A DNA stretch of 35,999 bases from a virus, in IMG/VR virus record IMGVR_UViG_3300031688_000056, positions 1-35,999 of that record, one strand, 5' to 3'. The notes beneath the pieces were generated by a model. The model saw nothing but the letters and a program-made list of their open reading frames with translations. It searched no databases and was not told the DNA's origin. The stretch's first letter is position 1, and the number at the start of each line of letters is the position of its first letter. Shown piece by piece: positions 8,909 through 35,999 of this stretch. The translations under genes and the position numbers were made by a program.

Positions 8909-10204
8909 TCAACCATAGTACGTAATTCTAGTTTTATTTAATTCACCATATATTCTCATCATAAGTGCATCGGCATAATCTGGAGACCTGCCAATATACT
9001 CTTTTATTTTATCTTTACCAATTATACTCAGCTTATTATCCTTGTCAATATCCTTCATCTGTACTACCTCTAACTCCTGCACAATACTCTGTTTATTTTC
9101 TTCACTCCTTATAAATACTTTGCCCTGATTAACTTTCTCTGCAAATTTATAGTAGCATTGACTCTTAAGATTTGAGTAGTTTTCTTTAGCTAAAGCCCTA
9201 CTTCCATTAACGAATCCTTTGCAACCCGAAACGATATCACATAATCCACCTCCTACCCCGTCTTCATCAATAATAATATTTGACCTCTGTACCCTATTGT
9301 CATTTGCCAAAGCAAGAACCTTAGTAGATAATTCTGTTAGTGGCAACTTAGTGTACGTATGTATTGACTCACATCTATAGCCTGACCAACTACACACAAC
9401 TGATTTGTCCTTACCAAATCTAGCGACATCTACTGTTAGAAATCTATCACCCTGCTCTACGTATGTATTCGTAAAACAATCTATTATTTTATCGTAAACA
9501 AATAACTTAGTGTCATCATCATCATACTCCCAATTACCATACAATAGCCTTTCCTTAGATATCTTATCTAATGCTTGAAGCTGTGTTATATAGTGTTTGC
9601 TAATTGACGGATTATCAGTTACTAAGGACTTCAGGAACTTATGGTTTTTAGGTAGCCTCTCTTCTTTGTCTAATTTGTAAAACTCATTATATAACCAATT
9701 CTTTGAAGGGTTACAAGTCATTAATACTTTAGGTATTAAATTATGTTTGTCTAACGAGAATCTTATCCTACTACTTAATATTTGATATGCCTTTTGATTT
9801 ACCTCTGCTGCTTCATCAATAAATGCTCCTGTAATCTCCATACCACCTAACGCTGTATAATCGGGGTCTGACGGATAATAATACAGGTCTTTTAAAATTA
9901 TTTCACTTTTGGTTTGATAGAATGTTATTGTACTACTTGTGCTGTTATATTTGTAATGGTCAATAGTTATACCTTGCATAGCCATCACCTCAAATAGTGT
10001 TTTGAGGGTGGTCTCTTTGAGCGTTTTTAGTTTCGCTCTTCCGATTATCCATCTTGTATTCGGATACTTTAGACATTGTTTTAATATCCAAAAACAACCT
10101 AATACACTCTTACCTCCTCCTGCTCCTCCACCAAACAATAAAACATTATTGGTATCGTCTTCTAATATATCTAAAGCCTGAGTCTGTTTAACTGTTAATA
10201 TCAT
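8909..10204 (-). CDS. terL: Terminase large subunit
   Basis: A 431-aa DNA packaging motor: ATPase plus nuclease that cuts concatemers and pumps DNA through the portal. Seen directly: Walker A GGGAGGGKS (25-33), Walker B ITGAFIDEAAE (about 124-134), coupling motif MTCNPS (162-167), then the RNase H-like nuclease with FLTVDVARFGKDKS (D259), IIIDEDGVGGG, and a C-terminal SPDYADALMM. Length is typical. It follows a 22-aa membrane ORF and the HNH gene; the next operon starts 49 bp downstream from its own late promoter. Identification is secure. Confidence 0.96.
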   Translation of the reverse strand: MILTVKQTQALDILEDDTNNVLLFGGGAGGGKSVLGCFWILKQCLKYPNTRWIIGRAKLKTLKETTLKTLFEVMAMQGITIDHYKYNSTSSTITFYQTKSEIILKDLYYYPSDPDYTALGGMEITGAFIDEAAEVNQKAYQILSSRIRFSLDKHNLIPKVLMTCNPSKNWLYNEFYKLDKEERLPKNHKFLKSLVTDNPSISKHYITQLQALDKISKERLLYGNWEYDDDDTKLFVYDKIIDCFTNTYVEQGDRFLTVDVARFGKDKSVVCSWSGYRCESIHTYTKLPLTELSTKVLALANDNRVQRSNIIIDEDGVGGGLCDIVSGCKGFVNGSRALAKENYSNLKSQCYYKFAEKVNQGKVFIRSEENKQSIVQELEVVQMKDIDKDNKLSIIGKDKIKEYIGRSPDYADALMMRIYGELNKTRITYYG

Positions 10205-10208
10205 TACT

Positions 10209-10277
10209 TTAAATTAGTATAAGAATTATTATTAAAGCTATATATAACATAAATATAATAACTAAATCTTTTTTCAT
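10209..10277 (-). CDS. 22-aa single-pass membrane peptide between HNH and terL
   Basis: A tiny ORF whose ATG overlaps the HNH stop codon (ATGA) and which ends 4 nt before the terL start, filling the gap exactly. The product is MKKDLVIIFMLYIALIIILI plus two residues: two lysines and an aspartate followed by one hydrophobic stretch, a classic inner-membrane anchor. The overlap arrangement and exact gap filling argue that it is translated. No known function; it could affect membrane state, lysis timing or simply be a translational bridge to terL. Confidence 0.5.
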   Translation of the reverse strand: MKKDLVIIFMLYIALIIILILI

Positions 10278-10528
10278 CTACTTAGTAATTTGTATTTTTC
10301 TTTACCTTGAAAATCAAAAGCGTAATGACATTCCATACATAATAATTGTATGTTATCCTTATCGTACTTAAGTTCAGGGTACGCTCCTTTACCTTTTACG
10401 TGTGAAAAATAATGTGCTATTGCTTCATCACCTAAGTGCCTTTTGCAATTAGTACATCTATGCTCACGTTCATTCCAAATTTCAAAAAACATTTTTTTCT
10501 CCCTACCCTTATTCTGTTTCTTTGTCAT
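10274..10528 (-). CDS. HNH endonuclease of the packaging module
   Basis: A basic 84-aa protein with C25-x2-C28, H39 and H43 in AHYFSHVKGKG, N59 in DKDNIQLLC, and C64-x2-C67-H68: the zinc-coordinated beta-beta-alpha metal fold of HNH nucleases. Such proteins next to terminase genes (HK97 gp74 type) assist terminase cleavage of phage DNA. It lies between the small and large terminase genes, consistent with that role. A free-standing homing nuclease is the alternative, but there is no sign that it interrupts a gene. Confidence 0.85.
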   Translation of the reverse strand: MTKKQNKGREKKMFFEIWNEREHRCTNCKRHLGDEAIAHYFSHVKGKGAYPELKYDKDNIQLLCMECHYAFDFQGKEKYKLLSR

Positions 10529-10580
10529 CTTTAGTATATAGTATCCACGCTATTAACAATAGCAGAAAATTAATTATCAT
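10509..10580 (-). CDS. 23-aa single-pass membrane peptide between terS and HNH
   Basis: The ATG (10580) lies inside the last codons of the small terminase gene and the stop lies 20 nt inside the HNH frame. The product starts MIINFLLLLIAWILYT and ends with charged KDDKETE, i.e. one membrane span and a short acidic tail. The reading frame bridges the ~40-nt gap between terS and HNH. Like the peptide at 10209-10277 it is below usual gene-calling limits. Function unknown; translation is inferred from overlaps only. Confidence 0.4.
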   Translation of the reverse strand: MIINFLLLLIAWILYTKDDKETE

Positions 10581-10977
10581 CTTTTTTGTATGTTTTAACC
10601 TCCTTAAATATAATCGGTTTGTCTTCTACTCCACTATGTTCAAATCGCTCTACATAACCTCTACTCTTCCCACGAGTCTTTAAATGAAAAATTGTAGCTG
10701 TTGTATTTTCTTTAGCTATCTGTATAAATAAAGAAGTTTCTGATGCGTCTAGCGAAATATTATCTATATCCAAAACCTGTGCCTTATACTCAGGGTCTTC
10801 CTGCATCCACCTGTAATGAGTTGACCTATGTATGTTAGTTTTTATACAGGCAGGTGTTACTATACCCATTGATTTCATTAAAGCCTCTAATAATTTTTTC
10901 TTTTTAGGGTGTCTTATTTGTCTTATTTCTTCAAACTTTTCTTCTTGCTCTTTTGTCAGCTTATTTTCTTCGCTCAT
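10570..10977 (-). CDS. terS: Terminase small subunit (putative)
   Basis: A 135-aa protein with a Lys/Glu-rich N-terminus and a helix-turn-helix at ~28-60 (KLLEALMKSMGIVTPAC then IHRSTHYRWMQEDPEY), followed by an oligomerisation-type helix region (ISLDASETSLFIQIAKENT) and KTRGKSRGYVER. This layout is typical of small terminase subunits that bind pac or cos DNA and recruit TerL. Its start overlaps the end of the epimerase gene by 17 nt, linking packaging and sugar genes in one operon. Position two genes before terL supports the call. Confidence 0.8.
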   Translation of the reverse strand: MSEENKLTKEQEEKFEEIRQIRHPKKKKLLEALMKSMGIVTPACIKTNIHRSTHYRWMQEDPEYKAQVLDIDNISLDASETSLFIQIAKENTTATIFHLKTRGKSRGYVERFEHSGVEDKPIIFKEVKTYKKDDN

Positions 10978-11803
10978 CTCTATAATTATTTAAAAAGTCT
11001 ATTACATTATGCTTGAATTTAAAGTCCACTAACTTATGGTTCTGAGTCTTTGCCTTACTCTCTTTACTTTCGTATTTTAATGACTTCTTTTTGTTAGCCT
11101 TTACTCCACTAGCCTTTATGATATCAATAATTTTCTCAGGTTTACCCATACCTAACTCTAAATTAGCGTGGTATTTCTTATCTATTAACTTAACTAGATT
11201 ATCAATTACGTCTTCAATATGAGTGCAGTCCCTTAATTTCTCACCATCACCATATAGATTAATCTCGGTGTTAGTATCTATAGCATTCAACAAATTACCT
11301 ATTAATGTAGTGTTTATTTTTCTTGGCATTGTTTCACCATAAACATTAAATAGTCTAATTATATTGTTTTTGAATCCATTGAACAACATAATTTTTTCAC
11401 TTATCAATTTGGACATTGAATAAGGGCTTAACTCTGTATCGGATTCTACTGATGAAGAACTTATTAAAAATAGCTTAGAATCGTTTTTAACGGCTTGTAA
11501 TGATACATTGTAAGTTGACACTATATTGTTATACAAAAAGTCATTTGCGTCCTTTAAAGACTCTTGTACTCGTGCCTTTGCTGCTAAATGGTATATAACA
11601 TCTGTATCTTTCCAAAATTCAGGACTTATTTGATTAATGCAACTAACTTCTACTGCCCATTCTGATTCTAGTCTTTTATGATAAAACTCGTCATCATTTG
11701 TAGACATATTATCAATACATTTTACTTTATGACCTAAACTATGTAATTTCTTACATAATTCATATCCAACAAAGCCTAACCCACCCGTTACAATTACATT
11801 CAT
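10961..11803 (-). CDS. NAD-dependent sugar-nucleotide epimerase/dehydratase (extended SDR)
   Basis: A 280-aa extended short-chain dehydrogenase/reductase. The N-terminal Rossmann motif TGGLGFVG is at 6-13, NAD-pocket acidic residue D31, HLAAKARV at 72-79, SSSSVES at 115-121, catalytic Y128-x3-K132, RLFNVYG at 150-156 and the substrate-side YGDGEKLRDCTHIEDV at 184-199. This family (GalE-like) converts nucleotide-sugars. The ATG overlaps the stop of the glycosyltransferase (ATGA), so it most likely makes the donor sugar for that enzyme. The C-terminal ~50 residues are Lys-rich. The precise substrate cannot be read from sequence. Confidence 0.88.
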   Translation of the reverse strand: MNVIVTGGLGFVGYELCKKLHSLGHKVKCIDNMSTNDDEFYHKRLESEWAVEVSCINQISPEFWKDTDVIYHLAAKARVQESLKDANDFLYNNIVSTYNVSLQAVKNDSKLFLISSSSVESDTELSPYSMSKLISEKIMLFNGFKNNIIRLFNVYGETMPRKINTTLIGNLLNAIDTNTEINLYGDGEKLRDCTHIEDVIDNLVKLIDKKYHANLELGMGKPEKIIDIIKASGVKANKKKSLKYESKESKAKTQNHKLVDFKFKHNVIDFLNNYRDERRK

Positions 11804-12534
11804 ATTGTTATCTGTTGTTTTCGTGGTACTTTAACTCTAGTTTGTTCTTTATTTTTAGTTTGACCAATCGTAAGATACTTACCCCACTTTTCTTCAAGAT
11901 ACTCCATTTCTAAAATTGTAGCCTCTTTTGTTCTGTATTTACTATTACCTCCTTTATTCGTGTCTCTAATCTGAGAAACACTAAAGCGTTCGTCAAGCAA
12001 GATTATTCTATTGTGCAATAACTGTTGTAGCGTATAATCTACATCTACCTTAAATTTATTTTGCTCTGTAAACCTTAACTCATTTGATATGATTCCTACT
12101 GCACAACCAATATACGTTGACGTTAAAGAAAATGGTTGGTTTGGCATATACTTCCTTACATCAGCTTTTTGACTAAATCCAAAAAACTTTACGTCCATAT
12201 CTAAGGCTGTATTATATAGATTATCTATTAACCCCTCAATAGTATTCGGCTCACTTATTCTTAATGGTCGCTCCCTTGTTAAGTTTAACCACTCTTTAAT
12301 ATCATCATCAAATATCATAATATCCTGACCCTTGAACATATCAATACAATAATTTCTTATTTTACCAAGACCAACTATTTCATCAGGTATGGTTCTTATT
12401 TCACAAGTATCTAACATTACGTCTTCATATTCGGCTTTTTCACTAACAGGAACAATAAGAATAAAGTCTGTTAATAGCCTGTGCGTTGTTATGGTTTTCC
12501 ACCTACTTCTACTAATGACTACCTTCTGCAACAT
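11800..12534 (-). CDS. Glycosyltransferase-A fold enzyme, TET-associated (TAGT)-like
   Basis: A 244-aa protein with features of a GT-A glycosyltransferase: an N-terminal strand with TTHRLLTDFILIVPV, IPDEIVGLGKIRNYCID (49-65), the metal/nucleotide-binding triad FDDDIKE (D76-D78), a later acidic VDVDYTLQ (163-170), then NKGGNSKYR and an aromatic EYLEEKWGKY. This resembles TAGT-type phage enzymes proposed to glycosylate modified bases. No TET/JBP dioxygenase or hydroxymethylase is found in the window. It overlaps the ParB-like gene by 23 nt and the epimerase by 4 nt. Glycosyltransferase is likely; DNA as acceptor is inference, with virion proteins as the alternative. Confidence 0.65.
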   Translation of the reverse strand: MLQKVVISRSRWKTITTHRLLTDFILIVPVSEKAEYEDVMLDTCEIRTIPDEIVGLGKIRNYCIDMFKGQDIMIFDDDIKEWLNLTRERPLRISEPNTIEGLIDNLYNTALDMDVKFFGFSQKADVRKYMPNQPFSLTSTYIGCAVGIISNELRFTEQNKFKVDVDYTLQQLLHNRIILLDERFSVSQIRDTNKGGNSKYRTKEATILEMEYLEEKWGKYLTIGQTKNKEQTRVKVPRKQQITI

Positions 12535-13168
12535 AATCTTTTAATTTATTATAAAAAGTTTCACTCTTCAGGACTCTACCAATACCTGTTTTTTTGTGTT
12601 TTTCACTCATACTAACATCAACTCTCCTGATATCAAAAATATTAACTGCCTTTAAAAAGTCTTGAAAATGGTCAAACTTTATAATTAAATAATCGTGATG
12701 CTCATACAAAAACGTCTCCATTTTCTCAATCTCCATTTCTTCTTTTACATTATCTTGCAACTCATCCATAGACTCTTTTAAGTCCCACAAATCAAAACCA
12801 TAATCAATTAACTGAGTATGCGTAAAAAAAGTATCTAATAACGAGTCATCAAATTGACCTCCATTTTTATTAAGCCTTATGTTTAACTCTTTCTCTAACT
12901 CTAAATTTAGATTAACGAACTTACAAGGTATGATTTCGTGTCCTAACTCTACCCACAATCTTAGCCTTTGGTGACCACCTACAATAACATTTTCCCTACC
13001 CTTATGTTTGTTAACTATCAAAGCATCTACTACCCCAAACTTTTCCATTGACGTTTTAAGGTCGTATAATTCTTTACTACTTATTTTTCTAGGATTGTAT
13101 TCTGCCTTATTCAACTCATTCACAGGGACATCGTAAACTACAAAGTCTTTTGATTGCTTGTATTTCAT
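12512..13168 (-). CDS. ParB/sulfiredoxin-fold domain protein
   Basis: A 218-aa protein with a ParB N-terminal-like fold: YDVPVNELN, then NPRKIS (25-30) and the signature VGGHQRLRLW (63-72). ParB-fold enzymes bind or hydrolyse nucleotides. In phages they often sit beside DNA-modifying or packaging genes. The C-terminal half (90-218) is charged and has no partition-protein HTH that I can see, and there is no ParA, so plasmid-type partition is unlikely. It is the first gene after a strong terminator and a putative promoter (13184-13215), and leads the glycosyltransferase/epimerase/terminase operon. Confidence 0.75.
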   Translation of the reverse strand: MKYKQSKDFVVYDVPVNELNKAEYNPRKISSKELYDLKTSMEKFGVVDALIVNKHKGRENVIVGGHQRLRLWVELGHEIIPCKFVNLNLELEKELNIRLNKNGGQFDDSLLDTFFTHTQLIDYGFDLWDLKESMDELQDNVKEEMEIEKMETFLYEHHDYLIIKFDHFQDFLKAVNIFDIRRVDVSMSEKHKKTGIGRVLKSETFYNKLKDYVAEGSH

Positions 13169-13996: not shown

Positions 13997-14099
13997 AGTT
14001 TTTCATATTCTCTTCTAATTTATTCCTGTACTTTTTTATCGGCATTGAAATCCATAATACAGCTACGATAAATAAGATTATGTAAATAATAATAAGCAT
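13974..14099 (-). CDS. Small membrane protein with charged tail, 41 aa
   Basis: The ATG overlaps the stop of the 184-aa gene (TAATG). Product MLIIIYIILFIVAVLWISMP, then a Lys/Glu-rich helix of ~20 residues: one N-terminal membrane span and a short charged, possibly coiled cytoplasmic or periplasmic tail. The lipoprotein gene begins 23 nt before its stop in another frame. The pair has the architecture of a miniature i-spanin/o-spanin set, though it is unusually short. Confidence 0.5.
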   Translation of the reverse strand: MLIIIYIILFIVAVLWISMPIKKYRNKLEENMKNYEKFKNK

Positions 14100-14653
14100 T
14101 ATACAAGGTCATCAAATAAACCAATTTGTAGTATCGGTGTTAAACATTCTCGCTCTGAAATAAAAAAATCATCTTTTGTTTTACCCATCTGTTTTCCCTT
14201 TCTTGTGTGGCAATCATACGTATAATTCGGCATTCTACAAGTATTTAAGTTGTCTAATTTACTGACGTACTTATGCACCTCTTCATCTGTAATTCCTTTT
14301 TTCTTATCATAAACTAGACATTGTAAAGAATCGGGGTCTCTATTTTTATACCACTTACATAGTATAAGAATTGCCTTGCTAACGAATATACGTCCCTTGT
14401 CCTGTGGTTTGTTTCCTTTGTTTATCATAGTCCACGACTTATACAAAGAATAAATTTCGGTTGTTATTATTCCATCACAATCCTCAGCAGATACAGTCAA
14501 TAGTCTTTTCCATACATATTGCTTGTATCCTGACATAAATAATTCTAGTCCAAAATAACCTGCTATTTTGAGGTCATTTCTTCTGATTCCTTTTTGAAGT
14601 GCAGAGGCACATTCGTAAAAATCATAGTGTCTGTTTGTTAATATTTTTGGCAT
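14099..14653 (-). CDS. Stand-alone RarA/MgsA C-terminal-like protein
   Basis: 184 aa without an ATPase domain. Residues ~9-60 (YECASALQKGIRRNDLKIAGYFGLELFMSGY..VWKRLLTVSAEDC, abridged) match the pattern of the C-terminal helical domain of RarA/MgsA clamp-loader-like recombination factors (SAL-K-R-D-A-Y, RRL...SED). Residues ~147-170 contain CHTRKGKQMGKTKDDFF, an extra conserved-looking motif. In RarA this domain mediates tetramerisation and partner binding at stalled forks. The leader reads AAAACAACTAAAATG with a TATCTTTA box 19 nt upstream of the ATG. A replication-fork role in the phage, or interference with host RarA, is inference. Confidence 0.6.
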   Translation of the reverse strand: MPKILTNRHYDFYECASALQKGIRRNDLKIAGYFGLELFMSGYKQYVWKRLLTVSAEDCDGIITTEIYSLYKSWTMINKGNKPQDKGRIFVSKAILILCKWYKNRDPDSLQCLVYDKKKGITDEEVHKYVSKLDNLNTCRMPNYTYDCHTRKGKQMGKTKDDFFISERECLTPILQIGLFDDLV

Positions 14654-33698: not shown

Positions 33699-35999
33699 TT
33701 AAAAGCTTACTCTACTTTCGGCTGTTTTCACATTCCTTTGTGTTTGTGTTATTTGAGTCTCAGTAACTCTTACTTGTTGCGAATTGATTAACATTCCTAA
33801 ATTAGCAATATCACGTCCTGATAATGAGTTTTGTAATTGAGCGTCTTTACGTATTTGGTTCTGCATTACCATTCCACCATTAGCAAATTTTGTTCCACCA
33901 CCTGCTGCATTCATAGATGATAGTTGAGATTTGAACATAGACGTTGAGCGTTTATTTATTACTGCCTCACCCCCCTCTAATTCCATTACACGACCACCTA
34001 CTGCAAATTTTTCTCCACCTTGCTCGTGAGATTTACCAACTACCATTCCACCCTTTGCAAACTTCTTTGCTATATGACCTTTTGGTATCGGTTTACCCCC
34101 TTCTGCTATCAAACCTCCAAGCCTACCCCCAAACTCTTGTGAATCTATAGCTGCAACCTGCATACCTGTCATAGCAAGTTGTGCTGCCATTAATATTCCT
34201 GTAGTAATTCCAAAATCACCTTTAGGTACATCGGCTGCTATTCTCATTAATGCCATTGCTCCTGCCATAATAGCTTGTTTCTTTTGGAATTTTTTAGAGC
34301 GTTCAAACTCTACTCTCTTTAACTCTAACTGACTAGCATCATAGTCTTCATTTATATCCTTTAGAGCGTCTGCTTTTTGCTCTTCAGTCATTGCTTCAAA
34401 TTCTGCTGACGTCTCCATATCTGATAGTGCTGTTTCACGTTCAGTTTCGCTACGCAACATTGAATTGTCAAATTCTATTTGTGCCTGTTTATCCATCATA
34501 TCCATAACACCCATTGCAGCACCCATAACTGCCATTACGTTCTTCATTTTAGCTGACGTACCTTCACCAAATAATGAATCAGCCCACGTACTTGTTTTAG
34601 CCTGATTATCTAGGTCATCTATTTTCATTTGTATTTCACCAATCCTATCTAACTCATCACTTGTCAACTCTTCACCTGCCATTCCTTTAGCTACTAACCC
34701 ATCCATTTCAGCCTTTAATATATTTTTGTTTGCTTTTGAAACTTCATCTTGACCTCCATCTATTTGCTCAAAAATACCCTTCATTTTAGTATTCTTATCT
34801 ATTACTTCATCTAAAGCGTCCAACTCTTTTTTTAATCCATCAACACTTCCACCAACTGCTGCATTATAATCATTTGTATGTTTAGTTAAGGTTGCTTGTG
34901 CTGTTGTTAATGTTAATTTTGCTGCTACCATATCATCAGTTACGTCCCCACCTTTTGACTCTGTTATAAGCAAATCGTGTATAATTTTCTCTGCATCACT
35001 AACTGCTTTTTGTAGTCCTTGAAATGCTGTAGCAGCCGTAGATATTCCACCACTCAAATCATCATTTACATCAACCAAACCTCCTGTAGTACCCAAGATA
35101 TCATCTAAGTTATCTGATGCAGTCTTCATTTCACTATTTGATTTCTTTTGATTACCCCTTGACAAAGTTAGTGCGTCATTATAAGTATTATACAAAGCAT
35201 TAGTATCTTTAATTTTATTATTGAAATGCTGATACAGACTTGATTGTTTTAATTTTTCTGCTGCCTCTTTTTTCCCTGCTGACGTACTTTCATCTATAAA
35301 ACCTACTGCTTTACTACGCTCTTCATTTACCTTTTGCATTTCAACTTTAAGCTGTTCTTCTAGCATTTTTAAGTTAGTATTGATATCAGCCGAGTTACCT
35401 AAAGTTTCTTGCAATTCTTTTTCTAACGTGATTTCATCTTGTATAAATAAATTTAGTTTTTCTGATGCCTGTTCTGCTAGTATTTTCTGTTTAATAGAAC
35501 CTACTACTAATTGATAAGCGTTTGACAATTCAACTGCAAATTTCTTTTCATCTTTAAGGTTTTGTAGTGTTGTGCCGTATTTGTTATTTACTTCATCTAT
35601 TAATTTACCCCTTTCTTTTCGTGTTAGATTCTCATTTTTTATAGCATCAAATAATCCTTTAGCAGTTGACAATTCCTTAACTTGTTGTTGACCAAAAGTT
35701 TTTGAAATATCAGATAACCTCTTCATTCTTGCCTCTTGTTCTTTTTGAGCAACATTCATTGCCTCTGTTTCTTTATTACCCCTAAATAATAAAGGTATAA
35801 GTAGAGTTAATCCTGCTACAAGCAACCCTATAGGGTTCATTTTCATAGCTAAATTCAAAGCTTTTTGTGCTATAGTATAAGACTTAGTACCAATAGTTAA
35901 AGTTTTAAGCCCTCCACTCATTACAAATACTGCCGTTTTATATGCTATAAATGCTATAGTCCCTCTTTTAACTACTGTAGCAATGGTACTTAAGTGTCC
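33699..35999 (-). CDS. Tail tape measure protein, C-terminal part (gene begins at 1484)
   Basis: In-frame continuation of the tape measure gene past the window edge. The frame is open from 35999 through to the stop at 33699. It has a membrane-like segment (KMNPIGLLVAGLTLLIPLLF), long coiled-coil segments (LNLFIQDEITLEKELQETLG), a second hydrophobic stretch (KQAIMAGAMALMRIAADVP) and a Gly-rich end with AKGGMVVGKSHEQGGEKFAV and GGRVMELEGGEAVINKRSTS, which I have seen at the C-terminus of Bacteroidota phage tape measures. Ends TAESRVSF. Confidence 0.93.
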   Translation of the reverse strand, partial: GHLSTIATVVKRGTIAFIAYKTAVFVMSGGLKTLTIGTKSYTIAQKALNLAMKMNPIGLLVAGLTLLIPLLFRGNKETEAMNVAQKEQEARMKRLSDISKTFGQQQVKELSTAKGLFDAIKNENLTRKERGKLIDEVNNKYGTTLQNLKDEKKFAVELSNAYQLVVGSIKQKILAEQASEKLNLFIQDEITLEKELQETLGNSADINTNLKMLEEQLKVEMQKVNEERSKAVGFIDESTSAGKKEAAEKLKQSSLYQHFNNKIKDTNALYNTYNDALTLSRGNQKKSNSEMKTASDNLDDILGTTGGLVDVNDDLSGGISTAATAFQGLQKAVSDAEKIIHDLLITESKGGDVTDDMVAAKLTLTTAQATLTKHTNDYNAAVGGSVDGLKKELDALDEVIDKNTKMKGIFEQIDGGQDEVSKANKNILKAEMDGLVAKGMAGEELTSDELDRIGEIQMKIDDLDNQAKTSTWADSLFGEGTSAKMKNVMAVMGAAMGVMDMMDKQAQIEFDNSMLRSETERETALSDMETSAEFEAMTEEQKADALKDINEDYDASQLELKRVEFERSKKFQKKQAIMAGAMALMRIAADVPKGDFGITTGILMAAQLAMTGMQVAAIDSQEFGGRLGGLIAEGGKPIPKGHIAKKFAKGGMVVGKSHEQGGEKFAVGGRVMELEGGEAVINKRSTSMFKSQLSSMNAAGGGTKFANGGMVMQNQIRKDAQLQNSLSGRDIANLGMLINSQQVRVTETQITQTQRNVKTAESRVSF
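35989..35999. repeat. Right copy of the 11-bp terminal repeat
   Basis: CTTAAGTGTCC, identical to bases 1-11. Merging the two copies restores one tape measure frame. Confidence 0.8.

Follow-up and report, generated by a model that had tools for sequence, protein, structure and literature searches.

What does a phage operon do that couples a ParB-fold protein to a glycosyltransferase (GT) and a sugar-nucleotide enzyme and runs directly into the terminase genes, and which molecule receives the sugar? Glycosylated phage DNA is known mainly from hydroxymethyl or hydroxy bases. The window analysed here, the 35,999 nucleotides of IMGVR_UViG_3300031688_000056, is the entire IMG/VR record, and an exact 11-bp repeat is common to its two ends (1-11 and 35989-35999). 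Because joining the ends at this repeat closes a single open frame of 1,259 codons, the tape measure, the genome of about 35,988 bp is probably complete and closes into a circle. This closure lends weight to the absence of base-preparing families: Pfam searches of the record found no TET/Tet_JBP, no thymidylate synthase or hydroxymethylase, and no C5- or N6/N4-methyltransferase (MTase), in agreement with the first-pass annotation, which had listed no TET, hydroxymethylase or thymidylate-synthase-like gene. These empty searches speak against a standard route to hmC being encoded at some other place in the genome. Likewise, no first-sugar enzyme was recognised in the genome.

The operon and the terminase genes that it runs into comprise the following features:

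12512-13168, minus strand: ParB_N / ParB-Srx-fold protein, 218 aa, with which the module opens (Pfam ParB_N, E 3.8e-8; ParB-structure profile matches; fold model)
12923-13135, minus strand: ParB_N domain, residues 12-82, with N25 and G65-x-x-R68, and N100 downstream (aligns with ParB nucleotide-binding motifs)
12563-12703, minus strand: C-terminal region, residues 156-202, conserved among GT-associated ParBs (E156, Y160, F165, D170, G197-R198-V199)
11800-12534, minus strand: TAGT-family GT-A glycosyltransferase, 244 aa (PF20691, PHROG_842; AlphaFold model)
12301-12309, minus strand: DDD metal/nucleotide-sugar motif, residues 76-78 (invariant in 39/39 family members)
12037-12051, minus strand: K162-x-D164-x-D166 motif (invariant in 39/39 family members)
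10961-11803, minus strand: short extended-SDR NAD-dependent sugar-nucleotide epimerase/dehydratase/decarboxylase, 280 aa (Pfam Epimerase, E 8.5e-31)
10570-10977, minus strand: terminase small subunit (HTH), following the SDR in the same operon (PHROG terS, E 1.7e-4; same order in L004)
10274-10528, minus strand: HNH protein between terS and terL (Pfam HNH, E 7.3e-6)
8909-10204, minus strand: terminase large subunit (Pfam Terminase_6N, E 3.8e-12; PHROG_2, E 1e-33)

The ParB, GT and SDR frames each begin with ATG, and neighbouring genes overlap by 23 bp (ParB/GT, 12512-12534), 4 bp (GT/SDR, 11800-11803) and 17 bp (SDR/terS, 10961-10977). The terS is weak by HMM but precedes the HNH gene and a clear terL. 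The first-pass annotation had described three overlapping minus-strand frames running into terS, and these were recovered exactly; its family calls (ParB-like protein, TAGT-like GT and sugar epimerase) were likewise confirmed by Pfam and PHROG matches.

Against PF20691 the GT scores 30.3 bits (gathering cut-off 27.5; E 4.9e-7), and it matches PHROG_842, ‘beta-glucosyl-HMC-alpha-glucosyltransferase’, at E 3e-20; TAGT is matched by 38 of 39 module GTs. A profile search against solved structures returned no relative by sequence. The AlphaFold model, built from a 39-sequence alignment (pLDDT 88.8), is a GT-A fold whose best structural neighbour is cellulose synthase (Z 14.2 over 202 residues, 3.5 A), followed by GalNAc-transferases and WrtF, and the structure prediction that had been named as a check on this protein thereby upheld the fold. 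In a viral structure library, the model matches a T-even-type beta-glucosyl-HMC-alpha-glucosyltransferase at TM 0.78, and the module GT profile finds a Klebsiella phage beta-glucosyl-HMC-alpha-GT at E 6.6e-19. Residues invariant among the 39 family members are DDD 76-78, D125, K162/D164/D166, G195-G196, R201 and W217-G218, and K162-x-D164-x-D166 is the probable catalytic-base region. The T-even enzymes of T2 and T6 belong to the same Pfam family (PF20691, PHROG_842) and have in common with it the GT-A fold and two motifs, DDD and a conserved GG; glucosyl-hmC in DNA is the acceptor to which the T2/T6 TAGT attaches glucose (PMC13216743). Since these T-even transferases are homologs of the module GT, they support DNA as its acceptor. 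The T-even TAGT adjoins a dCMP hydroxymethylase and adds the second glucose to glucosyl-hmC, whereas the module has no hydroxymethylase and always has ParB attached; the T-even-type phage Mineola has no such ParB.

The SDR carries GxxGxxG (TGGLGFVG) and YxxxK (YSMSK) motifs, and the solved structures nearest to it are Pal, UDP-glucuronate decarboxylase and UDP-Glc 4-epimerase. It had been read, together with the GT, as a donor-plus-transferase combination beside ParB; the families and the operon stand, while the trio as a conserved unit does not, and the search for the same trio in other phages that had been suggested instead found the ParB-GT pair recurring with its third gene replaced or absent. 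For example, the pair occurs in 56 records of cultured Microbacterium phages, and in these phages (Gina) the order is ParB-GT-sugar enzyme, with a GT of ~30% identity to that of the window and a third gene that is UDP-glucose-dehydrogenase-like, not an SDR epimerase. In another example, Streptococcus phage Javan291, whose GT gave no plasmid match, has ParB-GT-terS-terL with the third gene absent. Record L004 has the same gene order as the window, including terS. With a third gene that belongs to different families or is absent altogether, the trio is rejected as a unit; the sugar enzyme is a lineage extra.

How firmly the two remaining genes are bound to each other was apparent when IMG/VR was scanned with GT queries. 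These scans, which rest on short peptide patterns, yielded 159 usable viral loci, including near-duplicates, and many of the records are fragments. All 138 loci with at least 700 bp of upstream sequence have a ParB gene ahead of the (first) GT, at most two genes away, as do 122/122 with at least 1500 bp; because this gene order holds in 138/138 loci, the association is not due to chance. ParB and GT are directly adjacent in 121 of the 148 ParB-positive loci, and where a gene intervenes, it mostly encodes another copy of the GT or a methyltransferase of the class-I SAM or FkbM type. ParB distances and GT distances correlate (r 0.47) across the 72 loci left after dropping GTs closer than 25% distance, a value reached by none of 2000 permutations (best 0.27). 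The pair was also present at all six loci from bacterial genomes (Bacteroides, Treponema, Phascolarctobacterium, Roseibacillus and two Victivallaceae). The conserved unit is the ParB-GT pair, whose members are essentially invariable neighbours, usually just upstream of the terminase genes. Tandem GT copies lie between ParB and the main GT in L019, L024, L029, L031, L033, L039 and L153, and such duplicates might transfer two sugars or serve two sites.

The terminase-side position itself invites an explanation. terL follows within five genes of the pair in at least 77 of the 101 loci with 4 kb downstream (three terL clusters), and the pair sits by several unrelated terS and terL clusters. Such constancy, together with the ability of ParB-fold proteins to bind DNA, would suit a packaging-linked mark in which only special sites (e.g., pac/cos) are glycosylated, mainly to regulate the terminase and not to counter restriction. 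We hold this to be improbable, for in Microbacterium phages terS is the first gene (gene 1) of the left genome end, whereas the module is found at the right end and is followed by more genes, and ordinary DNA methylases occupy the same slot in relatives, which fits anti-restriction.

The ParB-fold protein offers further clues. Its profile matches include CTP/CDP-bound ParB structures, and the best match to solved ParBs stops before or early in the HTH region, leaving the partition HTH uncovered; no ParA was seen among the scanned genes. These two points were weighed against a partition ParB, which would have a parS-binding HTH domain and act together with ParA. The fold model (pLDDT 81, with the C-terminal part less certain) matches Noc/ParB, PadC, sulfiredoxin (Srx), serine kinase (SerK) and SbnI. 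N25, G65-x-x-R68 and N100 are kept in 44 members and, when aligned to 6sdk (a CDP-bound ParB), fall on its GERR and EN positions; the nucleotide-binding motif positions are thus retained, and nucleotide binding is putative. Because these 44 ParBs, once aligned, proved too divergent to search the collection with, a single ParB served as query. Conservation of the C-terminal region equals or exceeds that of the ParB domain, and this region may be in contact with the GT.

A suspicion of DNA chemistry, voiced in the first-pass annotation on account of the ParB fold, gains support from what lies beside or within ParB relatives. In L078 (4295-8298), the order is ParB-Tet_JBP-TAGT-terS-terL with all genes overlapping (Tet_JBP PF12851, 4e-13), such that a predicted DNA-base dioxygenase (TET) is inside the module; a DNA-pattern search in L078 returned nothing. 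In L170, whose terL is 65% identical to that of the window, a ParB_N-N6_N4 DNA methylase fusion fills the slot before terS-HNH-terL, and L172, a close terminase relative, has two ParBs in the same slot. In a further terminase relative, L183 (2552-6389), a pair of PAPS-reductase-like genes, one of which has DUF3440, stands between two ParB genes before terS-HNH-terL, possibly constituting another ParB-linked modification system. Likewise, in Streptococcus phages the genes for a ParB-adenine MTase and Dcm immediately precede terS-terL, a place taken by ParB-GT in Javan291, and 30 of 58 loci with relatives of the Javan291 ParB have a DNA-MTase fusion, as judged by length and a PPY-type motif. Among these relatives, the ParB of L218 (2884-4094) is directly followed by a Mom-family gene (PF25680, 3.7e-38), and those of L215 and L243 adjoin other TAGTs. 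DNA is favoured as the acceptor because of the TET in the L078 module, the ParB-DNA-methylase in the L170 slot and Mom beside the L218 ParB. Two other loci of this set hold different neighbours: in L246 (2914-4783), a 366-aa ParB is followed by an ADP-ribosyltransferase-exoenzyme-like phage protein, and in L251 (3001-4802), a ParB gene is followed by a radical-SAM-like protein.

The choice between DNA and a virion protein as acceptor had been left open, and the comparative evidence now favours DNA, an acceptor that is inferred from neighbours and homologs. Were the GT and sugar enzymes to glycosylate capsid, tail or terminase proteins, with the ParB gene as a co-travelling regulator, the GT-A fold would be no surprise, as it is common to protein and polysaccharide glycosyltransferases; the genes also adjoin the late/packaging operon, and a virion glycan would likewise be consistent with the FkbM-type and other (class-I) SAM methyltransferases of some modules and with the sugar enzymes, which lie between the two genes or beyond them. 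Nevertheless, this explanation is unlikely, given the unbroken coupling to a ParB whose relatives are fused to DNA methylases, the TET inside one module and the fact that the closest characterised GT homolog works on DNA.

A different possibility is raised by P-loop proteins. In L215 (2917-5153), ParB is followed by a P-loop kinase-like domain fused at the N-terminus of a different TAGT subfamily, and in L137 a separate P-loop gene lies between ParB and GT; these parts hint, as no more than a lead, that some versions use a phosphorylated intermediate. They would also agree with a nucleotide-level or counter-defence system in which the ParB-fold protein, as a kinase or NTPase, acts on free nucleotides and the target of the GT is a nucleotide or some host molecule, as would the inclusion of a free-serine kinase and SbnI within the ParB/Srx fold and the structural neighbour AvpGT, which was solved with the nucleoside Ara-A. 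The probability of this arrangement is nonetheless small, as the DNA methylase, Mom and TET links point to polymer DNA and the module is without a conserved nucleotide-pool gene.

On the comparative sequence evidence, we consider it likely that ParB-GT is a phage DNA-glycosylation module with a ParB/Srx-fold partner. The GT would use a nucleotide-sugar as donor to glycosylate phage DNA, either ahead of packaging or at about that stage, and the ParB-fold protein would be its dedicated DNA-engaging NTPase or targeting partner. This partner role is likened to that of DpdB, a ParB-like ATPase that drives the insertion of a 7-deazaguanine base into DNA by DpdA (PMC12839542), and to the ParB_N domains fused to phage DNA methylases. 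In the window, the SDR would reshape the nucleotide-sugar such that the phage adds an uncommon sugar, and the likely benefit would be escape from restriction and other DNA-targeting defence.

By raw count among 45 records searched, most of which may be fragments, thymidylate synthase/hydroxymethylase and C5-MTase were found in none and TET in L078 only. Given this single TET, the lack of a hydroxymethylase in these records and the lack of a recognised hydroxymethyl-base enzyme in the window genome, the acceptor could be a canonical base, a base modified by the host or one that an unrecognised enzyme prepares. It is conceivable, though less likely than not, that a widespread ParB-fold NTPase and GT put a sugar directly on an ordinary or host-modified base, with no hydroxymethylation or oxidation, an undescribed route with exchangeable sugar-tailoring genes. 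Against DNA glycosylation by the pair, TAGT is known to act on a sugar that DNA already bears and not on a base, while the window genome has no recognised first-sugar enzyme; the slot beside the terminase is also common to unrelated cargo.

Several known systems resemble the module in part. TET/JBP-TAGT hypermodification systems are approached by L078, with Tet_JBP between ParB and TAGT, and differ from the other 44 of the 45 records, the window genome included, which are without TET. In the Dpd system (DpdA and DpdB), a base-modifying enzyme that acts on DNA is likewise assisted by a ParB-fold ATPase, with a TGT where the ParB-GT module has a glycosyltransferase (PMC12839542); no 7-deazaguanine genes or TGT were seen among the families and genes scanned in the window genome. 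ParB_N-DNA methyltransferase fusions (PHROG_498) have a related ParB domain (P0001 versus PHROG_498, E 8e-27) and the same genomic slot; they are single proteins, whereas the module consists of separate proteins, with a GT as partner and a ParB that has its own conserved C-terminal region. Finally, TAGT without alpha-GT or beta-GT was reported in 288 of 753 phage genomes, and the authors suspected novel transferases (PMC13216743). The module resembles these solitary TAGT homologs in lacking both enzymes; that work makes no mention of ParB, and the ParB pairing and terminase-side position are new here.

Literature on ParB with glycosyltransferases or hypermodification yielded no paper describing the pair; a prior mention is possible in Iyer et al. 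2013 (NAR gkt573), reportedly a survey of phage base-modification systems. Many ‘solitary TAGT’ phages gain a concrete partner in ParB. If the proposed function is correct, the pair would represent a further chemical route to sugar-coated DNA, one without known base-preparing enzymes, and ParB-fold proteins would have a general role as helpers of DNA-modifying enzymes.

A minor observation concerns another gene near the module. At 14099-14653 of the window, a PHROG_16866 protein resembles Gina gp91 (‘AAA-ATPase’), the product of the gene right after the Gina trio, and a gene of this type near the module is thus a further gene common to two distant phages.
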